This document shows positions 11,825 through 19,347 of a DNA stretch of 39,690 nt, one piece after another. Numbering within the stretch: position 1 is the first letter of the stretch; each line of letters opens with the position of its first letter. The translations under genes were made by a program, and so were the position numbers. The notes under the pieces were generated by a model. The model did not search any database. It saw nothing but the letters and a program-made list of their open reading frames with translations, and was not told the DNA's origin. The DNA is from Lachnospiraceae bacterium (GTDB lineage Bacteria; Bacillota; Clostridia; Lachnospirales; Lachnospiraceae), in contig JAFUZJ010000010.1 of the NCBI GenBank assembly GCA_017476665.1, forward strand, positions 1 through 39,690, in the 5' to 3' direction.

Positions 11825-11984
11825 TTGCCAGTGTGGCCCGGCATTGTATCTATTCCGCCGTGGGGACGCTCGCGCTCAATTTCGGACGTAACAGTACTAA
11901 GATGCGAAAGTACCGCATCTAAGTACTGACGTCCTCAAATGCCCCACTTGCAAATAGATACAATGCCGGGCTCGGTACTGGCAA
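11825..11984. repeat. 160-base nested palindromic element
   Basis: The whole stretch folds on itself. The outer arms are TTGCCAGT (11825-11832) with ACTGGCAA (11977-11984). The next arms are 18 perfect pairs, CCCGGCATTGTATCTATT (11837-11854) with 11953-11970. Then come GTGGGG/CCCCAC (11860-11865 with 11942-11947), ATTT/AAAT, and GGACGT/ACGTCC (11884-11889 with 11929-11934). The core pairs AGTACT with AGTACT and GATGCG with CGCATC around a 7-base loop at 11907-11913. About 58 base pairs form in total. No protein is encoded. It fits a mobile palindromic repeat, MITE relic or structured RNA; no T tract follows, so it is not a standard terminator. Confidence 0.75.
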
Positions 11985-12038
11985 AAAGATATTTGAGGAT
12001 CACAAAAATAACAACATGAAAAGTTGGGAGATAGAAAG

Positions 12039-13454
12039 ATGAGAAAGACGAAAGTAGTATGTACCATCGGGCCTTCCTGTGAAAACACAGAGACTCTGAA
12101 AAAAATGTGCGAGGCCGGCATGAATGTGGCGCGCCTGAATTTTTCCCACGGAAGTCATGAGGAGCATAAACACAAGATCGATCTGATCAAAGAGGTGCGG
12201 GAGGAGCTGAAACTGCCCATTGCCATCATGCTGGACACCAAAGGTCCGGAATATCGCATCGGTACCTTTGCGGACCACAAGATAACCCTGGAGGAGGGTG
12301 CGGATTTCACCTTTACCACGGAAGATCTCATCGGCGATGAGACAAAGGTTTCCGTCAGCTACAAGGACCTGATGAAGAATCTGGAGCCCGGCGATACCAT
12401 CCTGGTAAACAACGGTCTGGTCATCTTTGAAGTAGTGGATGTGAACGAGACCGAGGCACACTGCAAGGTTTTGAACGGCGGCGTGCTGTCCGATAAAAAG
12501 AGTATGAATTTCCCCGGAAAAGTCATGAAGCAGGATTTCCTGAGTGAGAACGACAAGGCCGACATCCTGTTCGGCATCGAGAACGATGTGGATTTCATTG
12601 CGGCATCCTTCGTTTCCACCAAGGCAGATATCCAGTCCCTGCGGTATTTTCTGGACGATAACGGAGGAAGAGAGATTGAGATCATCGCCAAGATCGAGAA
12701 CCGCTCCGGCGTAGACAATATTGAAGAGATCTGTGAGATTGCTGACGGCGTCATGGTGGCAAGAGGCGATCTGGGCGTGGAGATCCCCGGAATCGAAGTA
12801 CCTTCCGTGCAAAAATACCTGATCCAGAAATGTCGTCTTCTGGGAAAACGCGTGATCACCGCTACGGAAATGCTGGAGTCCATGATCCATAATCCCAGAC
12901 CCACCAGAGCAGAAATCTCCGATGTGGCAAATGCTGTTTATGACGGAACCTCTGCCGTCATGCTTTCCGGAGAGACTGCGGCCGGCAAGTTCCCGGTGGA
13001 AGCTGTAAAGACGATGGTGGAAACCGTGAAATTTACAGAAGACAGAATTCACTACGATAAGCGTTTTAAAGAAGCGGAGTTTATCATCCGCAATAACCAG
13101 GATGCGGTATCCCACTCCACCTGTGCCATGGCCATTGACGTACAGGCAAAATGTATCGTGGTCAATTCCCTGACGGGGCTTACCGCCCGCATGGTCAGCC
13201 GTTTCCGCTGTCCCATCGACATCATAGGCATGACCGCCTCCAAGAAGGCATGGCGCAAGATCAATCTGAGCTGGGGCGTGACTCCGGTGCTTTGCAGCAG
13301 ATATGCCTCCATGGATCAGATGTTTGAGAGCGATCTGGTACAGGCCAAAAAACTGCTGGATCTTCAGCCGGGGGACAACATCGTCATGACCGGCGGTCAG
13401 CTGACCGGCTCCGCAGGCAACACGAATCTGATCAAAGTAGAACAGGTGATATAG
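12039..13454 (+). CDS. pyk: Pyruvate kinase, short form
   Basis: It transfers phosphate from phosphoenolpyruvate to ADP, giving pyruvate and ATP, the last step of glycolysis. The protein is 471 residues, the form without a C-terminal PEP-utiliser-like domain. Marks are TKVVCTIGPSCENTETLKKM, MNVARLNFSHG, LDTKGPEYRIG, the active-site AKIENRSGVDNI, MVARGDLGVEIP and TATEMLESM. Several positions differ from the commonest form (usually KGPEIRTG and TATQMLESM), which suggests a divergent pyruvate kinase group rather than loss of function. The start at 12039 follows GGGAG; a TTG five codons earlier is less likely. No clear promoter lies between it and the palindrome, so transcription may begin at or before that element. 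Confidence 0.95.
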   Translation: MRKTKVVCTIGPSCENTETLKKMCEAGMNVARLNFSHGSHEEHKHKIDLIKEVREELKLPIAIMLDTKGPEYRIGTFADHKITLEEGADFTFTTEDLIGDETKVSVSYKDLMKNLEPGDTILVNNGLVIFEVVDVNETEAHCKVLNGGVLSDKKSMNFPGKVMKQDFLSENDKADILFGIENDVDFIAASFVSTKADIQSLRYFLDDNGGREIEIIAKIENRSGVDNIEEICEIADGVMVARGDLGVEIPGIEVPSVQKYLIQKCRLLGKRVITATEMLESMIHNPRPTRAEISDVANAVYDGTSAVMLSGETAAGKFPVEAVKTMVETVKFTEDRIHYDKRFKEAEFIIRNNQDAVSHSTCAMAIDVQAKCIVVNSLTGLTARMVSRFRCPIDIIGMTASKKAWRKINLSWGVTPVLCSRYASMDQMFESDLVQAKKLLDLQPGDNIVMTGGQLTGSAGNTNLIKVEQVI

Positions 13455-13469
13455 ATCAGGTAACGCCTG

Positions 13470-14132
13470 CTAGTCCTCCTGCTTGCGCAGAGAGGCATAC
13501 ACCCTGGACAGTGCGGAGCGATCCGTCCCCAGGCTTTCATCGTATTCAATGTTGCAGTAACTATAGCAATTATGGATCTTGGTTCCTGCCGCATGGGTCA
13601 TAGTGCGCTTGAAACTTGCACTGTATGTTTGATGCACATGCCCATGCAGCATGAGCTTCGGCTTCCATCTCTCGATCAGATCATTGAAACACCGGTACCC
13701 CCAATGGGGCATATCTTCCAGATCACCGTAGCCGGCGGCCGGCGCATGGGTCACCAGAATATCGATCCCACCCATCAATGCAATCTGCGGCGTCACTTTC
13801 AAAATACGGCGCCTCATCTCGTTTTCCGTAAACATCAGCTTACTTTTTTTGTATTTCATGCATCCACCCAGCCCTAGAATACGAACACCATTATGTTCAT
13901 ATACCCTGCCGTCGATATTGACGCAGCCAAGCGGCGGATTCTCCTCATACTGTGTGTCATGATTCCCATAGATATACAGCAGTTTTTTGTTGGTCATAGA
14001 CACAAGGAACTGCAGATAATCCGGGTTCAGATCCCCACAGGAGATGATCAGATCCGCGTCCTGCGTGCGCTCCGGACTGTAATAATCCCACAAAGCATTC
14101 GCTTCGATATCCGCTATCGCCAGAATGTTCAT
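13470..14132 (-). CDS. Metallophosphoesterase with altered first metal motif
   Basis: This 220-residue cytoplasmic protein has the calcineurin-like phosphoesterase fold. GDLN is at 33-36, GNHD at 56-59, THAP at 128-131 and HGHVH at 163-167. The first motif, normally Asp-x-His, reads DIE at 8-10, so one metal ligand is replaced by Glu. This could change metal preference or activity. The start codon overlaps the stop of the BMP-domain gene by 4 bases (ATGA), so translation is probably coupled. It converges on pyruvate kinase with 15 bases between stops. The substrate is unknown; the tight pairing suggests that it acts with the BMP-domain protein. Confidence 0.88.
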   Translation of the reverse strand: MNILAIADIEANALWDYYSPERTQDADLIISCGDLNPDYLQFLVSMTNKKLLYIYGNHDTQYEENPPLGCVNIDGRVYEHNGVRILGLGGCMKYKKSKLMFTENEMRRRILKVTPQIALMGGIDILVTHAPAAGYGDLEDMPHWGYRCFNDLIERWKPKLMLHGHVHQTYSASFKRTMTHAAGTKIHNCYSYCNIEYDESLGTDRSALSRVYASLRKQED

Positions 14133-16063
14133 TCTTTTCTTACCCCGCTCATACTTACAACTTCCTGCACCTGCGACACCAGTTCATCCATGGAGGGAAC
14201 CTCGCCGACTACATTGTCATTCAGCCAGTCCATATTGACGATCTCCTCTCCCGTCAGACCTTCATTGTCTGCCCCCTTTACAAGTCCCGTCTGACTGTGC
14301 AGTTCTCCGCCGAAAATCTGGATCCGCGCATCCACAAGCGCTTTCTTCAACATATTCGCCAGCTTCACCGAATAGTAGGAGATCCTGTCAGACATAAACA
14401 CATCGATCACGCCGGCGGACATACCGTACCAGTAATTGATCGCCTGATTTTTTTCCGCCACCTGCGCCGTATCCCACGTACCGTTCAGAACAGTCTGTAC
14501 AATCAGTTCATAATAATGGCCCCAGTTAATGACCGGCGCTGCCAGATTGACAATTCCGCCGTATTGATCCAGCTTGTAGATCCCGTATGCCCGGGACGCG
14601 TCATGGGGCTTGATAGTATCGGGACCAGACACCACATCCACCTGCAGATCCCGCATTTCCCGATGCCAGTCACCGTCTGCCTTGGTGGACCATGCCAGAT
14701 AAATCTTCGCCCAGGGATCTACCAACGCCGCTCCGATGGCAAACGCATTGATACCGGCAATTGTGCCATAAATCGGGTAATCTGCCACATAGCCTATCTT
14801 ATGATTTTCCGCCGCGCTGGCGGCGATTGCGCCCATAATGAATTTTGCCTCATGCATGCGTGCATAATAGGTGCGCACCGCACTGCTGGAGAGGTTCACC
14901 GAACAGTTCAGGAACTTTACCTTGGGATACTTCACCGCCGTCCGCAGTGTTTCATTCATCTGCGCCGGGAACACTGTGAAGATCATCTGCGCCCCTTTTT
15001 GCACAGCCTCATCCACTGCCGCTTCCATCAGCTCCTCTGTGTAGCAGTTCTCATACTTCTCGGTCTGTACGATATCTCCGAAGCTTTCCGCCAGACTGTT
15101 GCGTCCCAACTCATGATTGTATACCCAGCGGGAATCCGCGATCTCACGGTCATAAATGAAAGCGATGTTCAGCGGATTCTTCGCACTGTACGCCGGCGTC
15201 TGGGTCATCTTGAGAATGTCCATGAATACATTGCCCTTCGCCTCCTCCTGAGGCGTTTCCACAAGCGCGATCTTGTCCTCTCTGGTCTCCACCAGAAGCT
15301 CTTTCCAGATGGTATCCATGTTTTTTCGGATCTCTTCTTCGCTTCCATTGACCAATGTATCAAAACTATATACTTCCAGATAAATCAACAGTGCATCGCC
15401 GGCGGTCAGGTTGTTTAACTTACTGCCGCCTTTCTCCAGAAAAAGTGTCTCGAACAGTTGATATGCCTGACGCACATCCCTGACTTTTTCCTCTTCCCAC
15501 GGTTCCGTCAGATTCTGCCCCAGATACTCTGTCAGCTTCTTATAGCCACCCGGCTCCGAAAAGTAGATCCCGTAAATGGGAGCCACCTCATAAAACTCCA
15601 TGAATTCCTCATAAATCTGATGCTCTTTGTCATCGCTTTTTCGAGGTAAAAGTCTGGTGATATCCGCGTAGATTCCGGGGGCTCCCAGATATTTCAGCAC
15701 CGATACACGCGTATTTCCCTCCTGCACATAAAACCGCTGCAGGTATTCATACACTTTGATCGGATCCCGGAACCCTTCCTCCTCCTGAATATCATAGAGA
15801 TTAGACCATTTTGCGGAAAATTCACTGCCTTCCTTCAAAATCGGCATGAATCCACAGGAAAAGGCCTTCTGTCTGCCGGCGGTTTTGGTACCCGCGACCA
15901 TAGACAGAGGGATCTCCTTAACCCCGATATGCTGTTCCGCCGTATAGCGGCTCTCCTCCATAAAGTCTTCCAACGCCGTGAGATACGGATACTGACCGCG
16001 TGCCACCGCATTCCGGCACTCCTGCTCGCCACGTTTCAGTGCTTTTCTGTAATCTGTGATCAT
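14129..16063 (-). CDS. Signal-less BMP-domain protein with N-terminal ParB-like segment
   Basis: This 644-residue protein has no signal peptide, lipobox or membrane helix. Residues 1-140 contain a ParB/sulfiredoxin-like motif, VQEGNTRVSVLKYLGAPG, at about 113-130. A helical middle region follows. From about 297 (NPLNIAFIYDREIADSRW) it carries a BMP-type periplasmic-binding fold (PF02608), including NCSVNLSSSAVRTYYARMHEAKFIMG split over neighbouring segments, IGYVADYPIYGTIAGINAFA and WGHYYELIVQ. BMP proteins normally bind nucleosides outside the cell for ABC importers. Here the domain should be cytosolic, pointing to a nucleoside or ligand sensor role (inference). It overlaps the phosphoesterase start by 4 bases and has its own promoter. 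Confidence 0.82.
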   Translation of the reverse strand: MITDYRKALKRGEQECRNAVARGQYPYLTALEDFMEESRYTAEQHIGVKEIPLSMVAGTKTAGRQKAFSCGFMPILKEGSEFSAKWSNLYDIQEEEGFRDPIKVYEYLQRFYVQEGNTRVSVLKYLGAPGIYADITRLLPRKSDDKEHQIYEEFMEFYEVAPIYGIYFSEPGGYKKLTEYLGQNLTEPWEEEKVRDVRQAYQLFETLFLEKGGSKLNNLTAGDALLIYLEVYSFDTLVNGSEEEIRKNMDTIWKELLVETREDKIALVETPQEEAKGNVFMDILKMTQTPAYSAKNPLNIAFIYDREIADSRWVYNHELGRNSLAESFGDIVQTEKYENCYTEELMEAAVDEAVQKGAQMIFTVFPAQMNETLRTAVKYPKVKFLNCSVNLSSSAVRTYYARMHEAKFIMGAIAASAAENHKIGYVADYPIYGTIAGINAFAIGAALVDPWAKIYLAWSTKADGDWHREMRDLQVDVVSGPDTIKPHDASRAYGIYKLDQYGGIVNLAAPVINWGHYYELIVQTVLNGTWDTAQVAEKNQAINYWYGMSAGVIDVFMSDRISYYSVKLANMLKKALVDARIQIFGGELHSQTGLVKGADNEGLTGEEIVNMDWLNDNVVGEVPSMDELVSQVQEVVSMSGVRKE

Positions 16064-16096
16064 ATTCTGACCTTCCCAATCCTATTTTTCTTTTTT

Positions 16097-16125
16097 ATCA
16101 TACATCCTCTCTGTCAAAATGTCAC
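16097..16125 (-). promoter_or_regulatory. Predicted sigma-A promoter for the BMP/phosphoesterase operon
   Basis: On the minus strand GTGACA and TATGAT are separated by 17 bases, each five of six matches, 34 bases upstream of the ATG. It is back-to-back with the strong plus-strand promoter at 16148-16176. Confidence 0.55.
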
Positions 16126-16147
16126 CTGTTTTTGTAAAAGACGAAGA

Positions 16148-16176
16148 TTGACACCTTATAGCGAAATTGCTATACT
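16148..16176 (+). promoter_or_regulatory. Strong predicted sigma-A promoter for the sulfatase-like gene
   Basis: A perfect TTGACA is separated by 17 bases from TATACT, 24 bases before the start codon. This is one of the best promoter matches in the window. Confidence 0.8.
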
Positions 16177-16200
16177 TTGGAAAGATAGGAGGCGCTTCGC

Positions 16201-17847
16201 TTGAAAAAGATATTGAATCCCGATTTATATCCTGCCTTTACTCTGGTCTTTGCATTGTGCTTTATGCTCTTTTTTTATGCCCCGTTGGAGATATATTTCA
16301 ATAATGTAAACGATTTCTGGTACGATTTCCATATGCTTTTCCCTTACTGTGCAGGCATGCTTCTGGTTTTCTGCTTTCTGGGGATGTTGCTTTTTGTACT
16401 GATCAGCCTGCTCCCCCGCAAATTGTATCAGGCGGCTGTGATCCTCTGTCTGATCATGCTCCTTTGTACTTATGTGCAGGGCAATTTTATGTTGGATGCG
16501 ATTCCTGTCATTGACGGTTCCGAGATCGATTGGAACAGCTTTGGTTCCCAGCGCATTCACACCATGATCCTGTGGGTGGCTGTCTCCGCGCTCACTCTGG
16601 CGGCATTGCATTTTTTCCGCTATGATAATTTTTCCCGGGCGATTCCCATATTCAGCATTTGCTTTTCACTGATGCTGTTTGTCTCTCTGGTTGTTCTCTG
16701 CATCTCCCATTACGGCTTGGAAACCAAGGGAGACGGCGTTGTCACGGACGATTTCGCCTTCACACTCTCCGAGGATAAAAACTTTATTATTTTAATGCTG
16801 GATGCCGTGGACGGCGATACCCTGGTGGATCTGTGGCAGGACGAGTATGCTTTGACTTTTCAGGACTTCACCCGGTATGATAATTGCATGAGTGCTTATC
16901 CCTATACGGAACTATGTGTCCCCTTTTTATTCAGTGACAGTTATTTTGAAAATAATATGAGTTACCGCAGTTACTATACCAATGCTTTTACGAAGTCCCG
17001 CTTCTTGAGCGAATTGGAAAAAGAAGGGTACCGCATGGGACTCTATGAACCGGATGCCATTATCAATCACCCTGACATGTACCGCTTTGAAAATTTAAAA
17101 CAGAACCCTTTACTGATCTCCTCTCCCAAGGAAATGATCAAGATCCAGATCAAGCTGGCTGGCATGCGTTATATGCCTTACGATCTGAAACGTTACTGCC
17201 AGGTAATGCCCGGAGATGTCCCCAGACTGCGCCGATATTCCCTGGGAATCTCCTCTCTGGTTTTTGACGAATCAAACCTTGCCTTTTACCGGGCGATCAG
17301 CGACTCTGAGATTACCTATTCTGATGCTCCCTGTTTTCGGTTTCTCCATATTGAGGGTGCCCATATTCCCTATCGATATGATGAATTTGTAAATGAAGTT
17401 CCGGAAGGCACCGGAACCTACGAAGACAATGTGAAAGCCAGCATGACCATCGCCATGGCTTATCTGGAAAAATTAAAACAAAACAATGTATATGACAATT
17501 CCGTTATAATTGTAATGTCAGACCATGGCTACAATCGGTTCCAGTACAATGCTGCTGTAGGAAGACAACATCCGATTTTGCTTGTAAAAGGACAAAACGA
17601 ACACCATGATGCCGTTCAGATTTCCAAAGCTCCCATCGCACACGAAGATTTTCAGTCTGCCTGCCTGAACCTTCTATCAGGAACTCCCGGCACAGATATT
17701 TTTGATGTTCCGGAAGGTGCACACAGAGAGCGAAGATATCTGTTTTACTACTATACAGGTATGGGTGAACTGCAGGAATTTCTGCAGCCCGGAGATGCCG
17801 GAGACACAGATGCCATGATTTCCACCGACCGCATCTTCAGACAATAA
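16201..17847 (+). CDS. Membrane sulfatase-like hydrolase/transferase
   Basis: This 548-residue protein has about five N-terminal membrane helices (roughly 12-30, 45-70, 78-98, 123-140, 150-172), followed by an extracellular alkaline-phosphatase-superfamily domain. The domain opens with FIILMLDAVDGDTL, where the Thr after GD is a plausible nucleophile. It continues with HIEGAHIPY and ends its core at MSDHGYN, which supplies metal ligands. The layout resembles LTA synthase and phosphoethanolamine transferase families that modify surface glycans or lipids, but the substrate is not evident. The start is TTG at 16201, supported by AGGAGG 8 bases upstream; no ATG fits. A strong promoter precedes it and a hairpin follows. 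Confidence 0.82.
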   Translation: MKKILNPDLYPAFTLVFALCFMLFFYAPLEIYFNNVNDFWYDFHMLFPYCAGMLLVFCFLGMLLFVLISLLPRKLYQAAVILCLIMLLCTYVQGNFMLDAIPVIDGSEIDWNSFGSQRIHTMILWVAVSALTLAALHFFRYDNFSRAIPIFSICFSLMLFVSLVVLCISHYGLETKGDGVVTDDFAFTLSEDKNFIILMLDAVDGDTLVDLWQDEYALTFQDFTRYDNCMSAYPYTELCVPFLFSDSYFENNMSYRSYYTNAFTKSRFLSELEKEGYRMGLYEPDAIINHPDMYRFENLKQNPLLISSPKEMIKIQIKLAGMRYMPYDLKRYCQVMPGDVPRLRRYSLGISSLVFDESNLAFYRAISDSEITYSDAPCFRFLHIEGAHIPYRYDEFVNEVPEGTGTYEDNVKASMTIAMAYLEKLKQNNVYDNSVIIVMSDHGYNRFQYNAAVGRQHPILLVKGQNEHHDAVQISKAPIAHEDFQSACLNLLSGTPGTDIFDVPEGAHRERRYLFYYYTGMGELQEFLQPGDAGDTDAMISTDRIFRQ

Positions 17848-17850
17848 AAA

Positions 17851-17876
17851 GAAAACTCTCATGAGCGTTTTCTTCT
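17851..17876 (+). terminator. Possible intrinsic terminator after the sulfatase-like gene
   Basis: GAAAAC and GTTTTC arms enclose the self-complementary CTCATGAG, followed by TTCT. It lies 4 bases past the stop codon. Confidence 0.55.
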
Positions 17877-17888
17877 CATAAAAAATGG

Positions 17889-17918
17889 TTGGCAACAACT
17901 GCTATATCATGTTATAAT
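17889..17918 (+). promoter_or_regulatory. Predicted promoter for the Acb2/Tad1-like gene
   Basis: TTGGCA and TATAAT are separated by 18 bases. The -10 is also preceded by TGT, giving an extended -10. The start codon follows 39 bases later with an AAAGGAG ribosome site. Confidence 0.7.
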
Positions 17919-17956
17919 TAGAATTAATTAAATATCTGGTAAAGGAGAATTGACCT

Positions 17957-18328
17957 ATGGACAAACTGAATACAATTCAAAAAAGAAATAACCTCAATGA
18001 GATTTATTCTACGGATGAGTTGGGTTCTGATGGGGCACATCATTCCTACAGGATCGTAACCCCTAATGAGATCGACCCCACCGCAGGCATTCTTGCAACC
18101 ATCAAGTTCCAGAAAGGTGCAAGAAGCGAAACCGACGAGACCAACGGCGTTCTCGATGCAGATTTGCTGGAGATTATCAGAGACAGACTGACCTGCTTTC
18201 AGAACGGACCTTTTGCCTGTGAAGAGACTGCAGAGGCACTGAGACACATTACGGAAGCTTTGATGTGGCTGAACAAGAGAGCTGAAGACAGAGCAACCAG
18301 AAATGTACTGGGTAAGAGCGAGAAATAA
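17957..18328 (+). CDS. Small protein resembling the Acb2/Tad1 cyclic-nucleotide sponge family
   Basis: The protein has 123 residues and no signal or membrane segment. The C-terminal 75 residues carry the pattern I associate with phage anti-CBASS Acb2 and anti-Thoeris Tad1 proteins. These marks are IKFQKG at 49-54, NGV at 63-65, DRLTCFQNGPFAC at 76-88, then EALMWLNKRAEDRATR at 100-115. Those phage proteins bind cyclic oligonucleotides or ADP-ribose-derived signals and remove them. Here the gene is chromosomal among housekeeping genes with its own promoter and terminator, and no phage genes lie near. The N-terminal 30 residues (NTIQKRNNLNEIYSTDELG) are an extra segment. Family match is by recalled motif only; function in the host is inference. 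Confidence 0.7.
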   Translation: MDKLNTIQKRNNLNEIYSTDELGSDGAHHSYRIVTPNEIDPTAGILATIKFQKGARSETDETNGVLDADLLEIIRDRLTCFQNGPFACEETAEALRHITEALMWLNKRAEDRATRNVLGKSEK

Positions 18329-18352
18329 TCAAGAGGCAATAATCAAGAGGCA
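18325..18352 (+). repeat. Exact 14-base tandem duplication over a stop codon
   Basis: ATAATCAAGAGGCA occurs twice without a gap. The first copy contains the TAA stop of the small Acb2/Tad1-like gene, and the second runs into the terminator stem. It looks like a recent slippage or duplication. Confidence 0.85.
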
Positions 18353-18376
18353 GGTGATCCGAATCACCTGCCTCTT
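18345..18376 (+). terminator. Intrinsic terminator of the Acb2/Tad1-like gene
   Basis: A perfect 14-base-pair stem (AAGAGGCAGGTGAT at 18345-18358 with 18363-18376) around a 4-base loop is followed by ATGTTTTATTT. Convergent aldolase transcripts also run into this stem, though without a T tract on their side. Confidence 0.85.
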
Positions 18377-18394
18377 ATGTTTTATTTCTACTTT

Positions 18395-19261
18395 TTATTC
18401 AGCCTTACCAACAGAGCCGAACAACTCCATCTTCTCTTTCACGGTAGCCTTAATTGCCTCAGCACCGGGAGCCAGAAGCTTACGGGGATCGAAGCCTTTT
18501 CCTTCCTGATCCTTGCCTGCCTCGATATACTTACGGGTAGCCTCAGCAAATGCCAGCTGGCACTCTGTATTTACATTGATCTTTGCAACACCCAGAGAGA
18601 TGGCCTTCTTGATCATATCTGCGGGAATACCTGTACCACCGTGAAGCACCAGCGGAAGCTCTCCCGTCAGCTGCTGGATCGCATCCAGTGTCTCAAAGGA
18701 AAGTCCCTTCCAGTTTGCAGGATATTTGCCATGGATGTTTCCGATACCCGCTGCCAGGAAATCTACGCCCAGATCAGCAACTGCCTTACACTCCTTGGGA
18801 TCAGCACACTCACCCATACCGATTACGCCGTCTTCCTCACCACCGATGGCACCAACCTCAGCCTCAATGGACAGCCCCTTCTGATGAGCTGCCTTCACTA
18901 ACTCTCTGGTCTTCTCAACGTTCTCATCGATGGGATAGTGGGAACCATCGAACATGATAGATGAAAAACCTGCCTCAATACACTTATAGCAGCCTTCGTA
19001 AGTACCATGATCCAGATGAAGCGCTACCGGAACATCGATGTCCAGATCCTTTAACAAACCGTTTACCATGCCAACAACTGCGTGATAACCGCCCATGTAC
19101 TTGCCTGCGCCCTCAGATACACCCAGAATCACAGGAGATCTGCACTCTTTTGCAGTAAGCAGGATGGACTTTGTCCACTCCAGGTTGTTGATGTTGAACT
19201 GACCAACTGCGTAATGACCGGCTTTCGCCTTGTTTAACATGTCTGTTGCGGATACTAACAT
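18395..19261 (-). CDS. fba: Fructose-bisphosphate aldolase, class II
   Basis: Zinc-dependent cleavage of fructose 1,6-bisphosphate to glyceraldehyde 3-phosphate and dihydroxyacetone phosphate in glycolysis and its reverse. The protein is 288 residues. The start at MLVSATDMLNKAKAG (19261) follows GGAGG by 8 bases; the frame remains open 23 codons upstream but that part overlaps the promoter. Marks are YAVGQFNINNLEW, the zinc-binding LHLDHGTYEGCYKCIEAGF, the FDGSHYPIDENV segment, EAEVGAIGGEEDGV, GNIHGKYP and LHGGTGIPADMIKKAISLG. A promoter and a palindromic site lie directly upstream. Confidence 0.97.
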   Translation of the reverse strand: MLVSATDMLNKAKAGHYAVGQFNINNLEWTKSILLTAKECRSPVILGVSEGAGKYMGGYHAVVGMVNGLLKDLDIDVPVALHLDHGTYEGCYKCIEAGFSSIMFDGSHYPIDENVEKTRELVKAAHQKGLSIEAEVGAIGGEEDGVIGMGECADPKECKAVADLGVDFLAAGIGNIHGKYPANWKGLSFETLDAIQQLTGELPLVLHGGTGIPADMIKKAISLGVAKINVNTECQLAFAEATRKYIEAGKDQEGKGFDPRKLLAPGAEAIKATVKEKMELFGSVGKAE

Positions 19262-19292
19262 ACTCTTTTCCTCCATTCTTTCTATACCCTTA

Positions 19293-19308
19293 AGCGGTCT
19301 TGACCGCT
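19293..19308 (-). promoter_or_regulatory. Palindromic operator candidate at the fba promoter
   Basis: AGCGGTC and GACCGCT form perfect 7-base arms around two T bases. The site starts 11 bases after the -10 box, at the predicted transcription start, where a bound repressor would block initiation or elongation. Confidence 0.5.
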
Positions 19309-19318
19309 CGCTTTTAAT

Positions 19319-19347
19319 AGTATAACACATATTTCCAAAAATGGGAA
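19319..19347 (-). promoter_or_regulatory. Predicted promoter for fba
   Basis: On the minus strand TTCCCA and TATACT are separated by 17 bases. The -10 is good and the -35 matches four of six positions. The ATG is 57 bases downstream. Confidence 0.5.

Follow-up and report, generated by a model that had tools for sequence, protein, structure and literature searches.

The window analysed here, a stretch of 39,690 nucleotides from a Lachnospiraceae genome, carries a gene at positions 17957–18328 (tad1) whose product is a full-length homologue of Tad1, and by sequence matches and predicted fold is Tad1 proper. Sequence comparison establishes this homology, a location away from phage genes, confinement within the genus to carriers that cluster together, purifying selection, conserved promoter boxes, two chromosomal sites and a further chromosomal lineage in another genus. 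Adoption of Tad1 by bacterial hosts is probable, and is likely to have happened twice.

Tad1 is described as sequestering cyclic ADP-ribose isomers and cyclic oligonucleotides without degrading them, and as forming hexamers (PMC12043709, PMC10022894), each composed of three dimers (PMC12043709). Its chain is described as an N-terminal antiparallel β sheet followed by two long helices, the N-terminal domain being the part that Acb2 is reported to lack; homologues are described in phages and prophages (PMC12043709). Sponges are likewise presented as viral proteins (PMC11722364). The features of the tad1 locus in the window are the following:

16201–17847, + strand: sulfatase-like gene (PF00884, 27.2 bits; cut-off 25), upstream of tad1 and outside its transcription unit
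17889–17918, + strand: tad1 promoter, TTGGCA and TATAAT separated by an 18-base spacer, with TG before the -10 box (11 of 12 matches)
17957–18328, + strand: tad1-like gene, ATG start, 123 residues; N-terminal strands at residues 15–18, 30–34 and 45–50, C-terminal helical hairpin at 67–83 and 89–114, then a tail
18345–18376, + strand: intrinsic terminator, 14-pair stem and 4-base loop, between the convergent tad1 and fba
18395–19330, - strand: fba, class II fructose-bisphosphate aldolase (PF01116, 4e-100), convergent neighbour of tad1

Identity and Predicted Fold

The open reading frame is a real gene, and its kinship with Tad1, proposed in the initial annotation from sequence motifs, is borne out well beyond chance. 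The motifs in question (FQKG, NGV, DRL-x2-FQNGPFAC and ALMWL-x2-R-x3-R) are all present in the product. Among solved structures, phmmer matches CbTad1 from a Clostridium prophage (7uav) at 5.3e-34 over residues 1–122, a second solved Tad1, CmTad1 (8kbb), at 1.3e-11 and gp184 (8y6v) at 4e-4. The phage family phrog_2428 (PHROG 2428) is matched at 2.1e-31 over residues 1–123. The Pfam family for the Acb2/Tad1 hairpin, PF24729, stays below threshold (19.3 bits, cut-off 27; residues 70–107), and an NCBIfam search with the product returns no match. Full-length matches to Tad1, combined with a sub-threshold hairpin match and an empty NCBIfam search, identify the product as Tad1, with the N-terminus usual for that protein. 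The earlier assignment to the Acb2/Tad1 fold holds on the side of Tad1. Membership of Acb2 is ruled out: the likeness is confined to the weak hairpin match, and the window protein has the Tad1 N-terminal domain. The 30 N-terminal residues once regarded as extra are so only by comparison with Acb2; they align with the N-terminus of solved Tad1 (7uav).

Structure prediction, also proposed as a check, gives a Tad1-like fold. The model (pLDDT 77) contains three strands, Tad1 being described with four, followed by the two helices of the hairpin. All 20 Foldseek matches at E ≤ 0.001 are Tad1 chains, with CbTad1 at the top (E 9e-11), and the predicted hairpin superposes on CbTad1 with an rmsd of 0.9 over 62 residues.

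CbTad1, encoded by a Clostridium botulinum prophage (7uav, 7uaw, 8smd, 8kbe, 8kbf), is similar to the window protein over its full length, with 49–51% identity in the fold-search alignments, the same domain order, the same hairpin and nearly the same size (124–125 residues in most entries against 123 here). It differs in setting: CbTad1 belongs to a prophage, whereas the window gene is chromosomal, lies beside fba, has its own promoter and is distributed with its host clade. Relatives of tad1 occur in 69 of 50,697 phage records at E ≤ 0.01, all below 60% identity. They include the annotated Tad1 of Bacillus phage SBSphiJ7 (OM982674), which is 48% identical to the window protein over residues 43–123 but is a phage gene, with a product of 142 residues and V rather than R at position 56. 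Two Tad1 relatives carry annotations that are probably wrong, ‘structural protein’ in Lactococcus phage 1706 (L021:1528-1881) and ‘ABC transporter ATPase’ in Agrobacterium phage OLIVR5 (L022:1456-1857).

Conserved Residues and Predicted Pocket

An alignment of 28 Tad1 sequences, in which some rows match part of the protein only and the four rumen rows include an identical pair, is invariant (28/28) at F51, Q52, G54, G64, R77, A94, R108, R112, R115, V117 and G119. F81 is kept in 26 of the 28, and R occupies position 56 in 20. In CbTad1, R57, F82, N92, R109 and R113 are presumably the pocket residues, N92 with a role in binding. The window protein keeps R56, F81, R108 and R112 and has T91 at the place of CbTad1 N92. 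Position 91 is N in 22 of the 28 sequences; the rumen clade has T in three members and D in the fourth, RGIG4995, and two viral sequences also have T. With T or D replacing N92, ligand choice may have changed in the rumen clade.

Genomic Context and Transcription Unit

The window gene is its own transcription unit, as the initial annotation had read it: the extended -10 promoter and the terminator listed above are both found, by a scan that yields about one site of each kind on shuffled sequence. The -10 box and its TG do not differ between the window and three relatives, and the -35 box is nearly constant, being TTGTCA instead of TTGGCA in the relocated copy of RGIG4995. The inverted repeat of the terminator is also present in UBA3821 and RUG14141, and in weaker form in RGIG4995. 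A 14-base tandem duplication, in which AATAATCAAGAGGC occurs twice (18324–18351), covers the tad1 stop codon and enters the terminator stem; it is not seen in three aligned relatives.

The position between a sulfatase-like gene and fba, with no phage genes around, is likewise confirmed by Pfam and PHROGs. No family of phage morphogenesis, lysis or integration is matched by the 16 window proteins searched against Pfam or the 4 searched against PHROGs; in the latter, the sulfatase and bmp proteins have no match, and the fba and DAGK proteins fall into families of unknown function. The window also encodes pyk, agcS, HPr, RapZ, MurB, UvrC and a GH9 cellulase. No defence operon was found at or beside tad1, its Pfam-tested neighbours being metabolic and housekeeping genes, and Rfam and tRNA scans of the window found nothing. 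This setting of housekeeping neighbours departs from the phage or prophage surroundings usual for Tad1. The GC content of tad1 (46%) and its GC3 (50%) are lower than those of most of the eight neighbours compared; both are near the values of the sulfatase gene, and GC3 is also near that of fba.

A link between tad1 and the sulfatase gene is ruled out. The latter lies between bmp and tad1 in the window's genome (G000) and UBA3821 and is missing from the same site in RUG14141, which points to an independent gain or loss. The window clade has pyk, a phosphoesterase gene, bmp and tad1 between agcS and fba (11900–18390). In genome G096 agcS adjoins fba, and in G106 it is next but one, beyond a 165-residue ORF. 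The adjacency in G096 suggests that the intervening genes of the window clade came to this place by insertion or relocation, all at once or stepwise.

Distribution, Descent and Selection in the Genus

Of 138 genomes in the genus, four carry the gene, all with an open reading frame; a family sample of 397 genomes yields one carrier, the window's own genome. The proteins of UBA3821 (G007), RUG14141 (G076) and RGIG4995 (G033) are 100%, 96% and 85% identical to that of the window. The four carriers include three draft MAGs, which are 69–85% complete.

In the window's genome, UBA3821 and RUG14141, tad1 adjoins fba. In RGIG4995 it is flanked by genes for an RlmI-like methyltransferase and an AI-2E transporter, and no phage genes were seen among the ORFs of the surrounding 20 kb, judged by eye. 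The gene was not found beside fba of RGIG4995, nor at 29 other AI-2E loci read (up to 1.5 kb on each side). It occurs at 2 of the 30 fba loci read, among which no clean empty fba-side site was obtained; seven of these loci, followed beyond fba, differ in the next gene downstream.

Host phylogeny groups the carriers. They fall together with UFBoot 100 in a tree of fba, DAGK and HPr for 24 of 30 genomes (UBA3821 left out), and again with UFBoot 100 in a tree of AI-2E and RluD for 30 genomes including all four carriers; since these trees hold the 30 best-scoring genomes of each search, a non-carrier may still belong inside the carrier clade. Among the 136 genomes with an AI-2E match, the three other carriers rank closest to RGIG4995, and in the fba ranking RUG14141 and RGIG4995 come directly after the window. 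The rumen pattern agrees with a single capture, vertical inheritance and a single relocation of the transcription unit.

Judged from its substitution pattern, tad1 is under strong purifying selection, with dN/dS of 0.02–0.09. The ratio is 0.023 between the window and RUG14141 (dS 0.98), 0.044 between the window and RGIG4995 (dS 2.1) and 0.085 between RUG14141 and RGIG4995 (dS 1.3), the larger dS values being near saturation. For comparison, dS is 0.53–0.91 for fba and 1.1–1.4 for the DAGK gene, of the same order as for tad1.

Tad1 Elsewhere in Clostridia

At the level of the class, 9 of 391 genomes sampled have a match: that of the window, five with hits among phage genes (L111–L115) and three of a second Clostridia genus, g412, in non-phage surroundings (L107–L109). 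The surroundings of L111–L114 were checked by PHROGs and those of L115, whose match covers only residues 71–122, by reading of the ORFs. These five hits indicate that the approach separates phage from chromosomal settings. Prophage tad1 genes (L008, L111, L112, L113) are repeatedly found in the head cluster, among portal, minor-head and major-head genes.

In g412, tad1 occurs as a chromosomal gene in 10 of 19 genomes (L126–L135). Eight of the ten share a site on at least one flank and six on both. One flank is an amino-acid ABC transporter operon (7/10); the other (7/10) comprises genes for DUF4364, an Fe-S protein, DUF512 and a Der/EngA-like GTPase, these families having been assigned for one locus, L129. 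In L131 a 910-residue ORF separates tad1 from this second group. L134 and L135 lie at other sites, the former next to an apparent insertion-sequence transposase (identified by eye). Six g412 neighbours compared with PHROGs match no head, tail, lysis or integration family; their best PHROGs are auxiliary-metabolic in two cases and of unknown function in three, with none in one. Across the 38 of 45 pairs of g412 tad1 genes whose dS is finite, the median dN/dS is 0.059 and the highest value 0.098.

The g412 genes thus resemble that of the window as chromosomal single genes of the same family under purifying selection, and differ in forming a separate clade, in occupying another site and in keeping N92 in all ten copies. 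The Tad1 tree gives the rumen clade and the g412 clade a support of 100 each and places phage and prophage sequences between the two; since the separating nodes have support of only 59–84, two separate captures are likely rather than proven. Clade grouping, selection and the chromosomal copies of g412, set against the five hits among phage genes, together argue for adoption by hosts.

Candidate Partner Systems

The initial annotation had proposed a survey of carrier genomes for CBASS or Thoeris; among the four carriers no cognate system is found, and the TIR genes that do occur are uninformative. TIR_2 domains are present in all four carriers, with five in the window's genome, and TIR genes in 92 of the 138 genomes of the genus, including 88 of 134 non-carriers; an association between tad1 and TIR genes was therefore dropped. 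STALD, the SLOG domain of ThsA, is found in no carrier and in 5 of the 138 genomes. The SMODS CD-NTase is likewise found in none of the four. SAVED also gives 0/4, but the control genomes gave no match either, and this result is not evidence of absence. Given the draft state of three of the four carriers, these absences are soft.

On another contig of the window's genome (C7, L031:5832-9548), a standalone TIR gene of 174 residues lies beside genes of 495, 335 and 272 residues, for which Pfam and PADLOC give no family above the Pfam cut-off or of note. The four genes are possibly an undescribed TIR defence operon.

Proposed Function and Alternatives

The reading favoured here, with a little better than even confidence, is that a phage Tad1 gene was captured in the ancestry of a small rumen clade of Lachnospiraceae and has been retained as an ordinary gene of the chromosome, under a sigma-70-type promoter of its own and with a product that buffers nucleotide signals. 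The protein would still form the Tad1 oligomer and bind such signals, namely isomers of cyclic ADP-ribose and cyclic di- and trinucleotides. Its promoter suggests production in uninfected cells; if so, the protein would act as a buffer and make suicidal TIR- or CBASS-type systems, among them newcomers on mobile elements, harder to trigger, and neither noise nor a recently acquired system would then kill the cell. Buffering of TIR- or CBASS-type signals is the most likely role of the product; with TIR genes also frequent in non-carriers and no cognate Thoeris or CBASS found in the four carriers, no association points to a particular target.

It is highly improbable that tad1 is a remnant of some decayed prophage or other mobile element and has no present use. 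The many phage and prophage relatives, the rarity of the gene in genus and family, and a GC content below that of most neighbours (though near that of the sulfatase gene) would suit such an origin; low dN/dS over substantial dS makes a useless relic unlikely, and the open frame in every carrier, the conserved promoter boxes and the lack of visible phage genes at either chromosomal site also speak against it. The gene could instead serve mobile elements or lysogens by leaving the cell permissive to them rather than tolerant of its own immunity. The known function of Tad1 is described as anti-Thoeris and anti-CBASS (PMC12043709), and TIR genes are common in the genus, but in the rumen clade no linkage to mobile elements is seen, and the occurrence of the gene mirrors the host trees; this explanation is unlikely.

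It is likewise unlikely that Tad1 has been repurposed as a regulator that binds another host nucleotide, such as c-di-AMP or an NAD-derived metabolite, unrelated to phage immunity. The change at the N92 position would agree with this, as would the failure to find a cognate immune system by SMODS, STALD or SAVED (for which the controls, too, lacked a match). In work on Panoptes, two of four Tad1 alleles are reported to activate a system using 2',3'-c-di-AMP, in the authors' opinion by sequestering that nucleotide (PMC12657218). On the other side, the remaining conserved positions inspected are kept, and g412 retains N throughout.

Implications

A well-preserved copy among housekeeping genes suggests that sponges of this kind may serve some bacteria as well. 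No host-owned Tad1 is reported in the titles and abstracts listed by searches on sponges or Tad1 of host or chromosomal origin, which mostly leave subscription literature outside their coverage. In its broadest form, the proposal would make Tad1 a host gene family as well, adopted at least twice in Clostridia and supplying constitutive chromosomal buffers for the second messengers of immunity, as a layer of self-tolerance in abortive immunity; this generalisation is tentative, its chances falling slightly short of even.

Sponges such as Tad1 have been described as viral weapons. If stable host-owned copies exist, bacteria would tune the sensitivity of their own suicide signalling, and Tad1 would become less straightforward as a prophage marker in anti-defence surveys. 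Such copies would also offer a natural system for asking how TIR- and CBASS-type immunity avoids mistaken firing.
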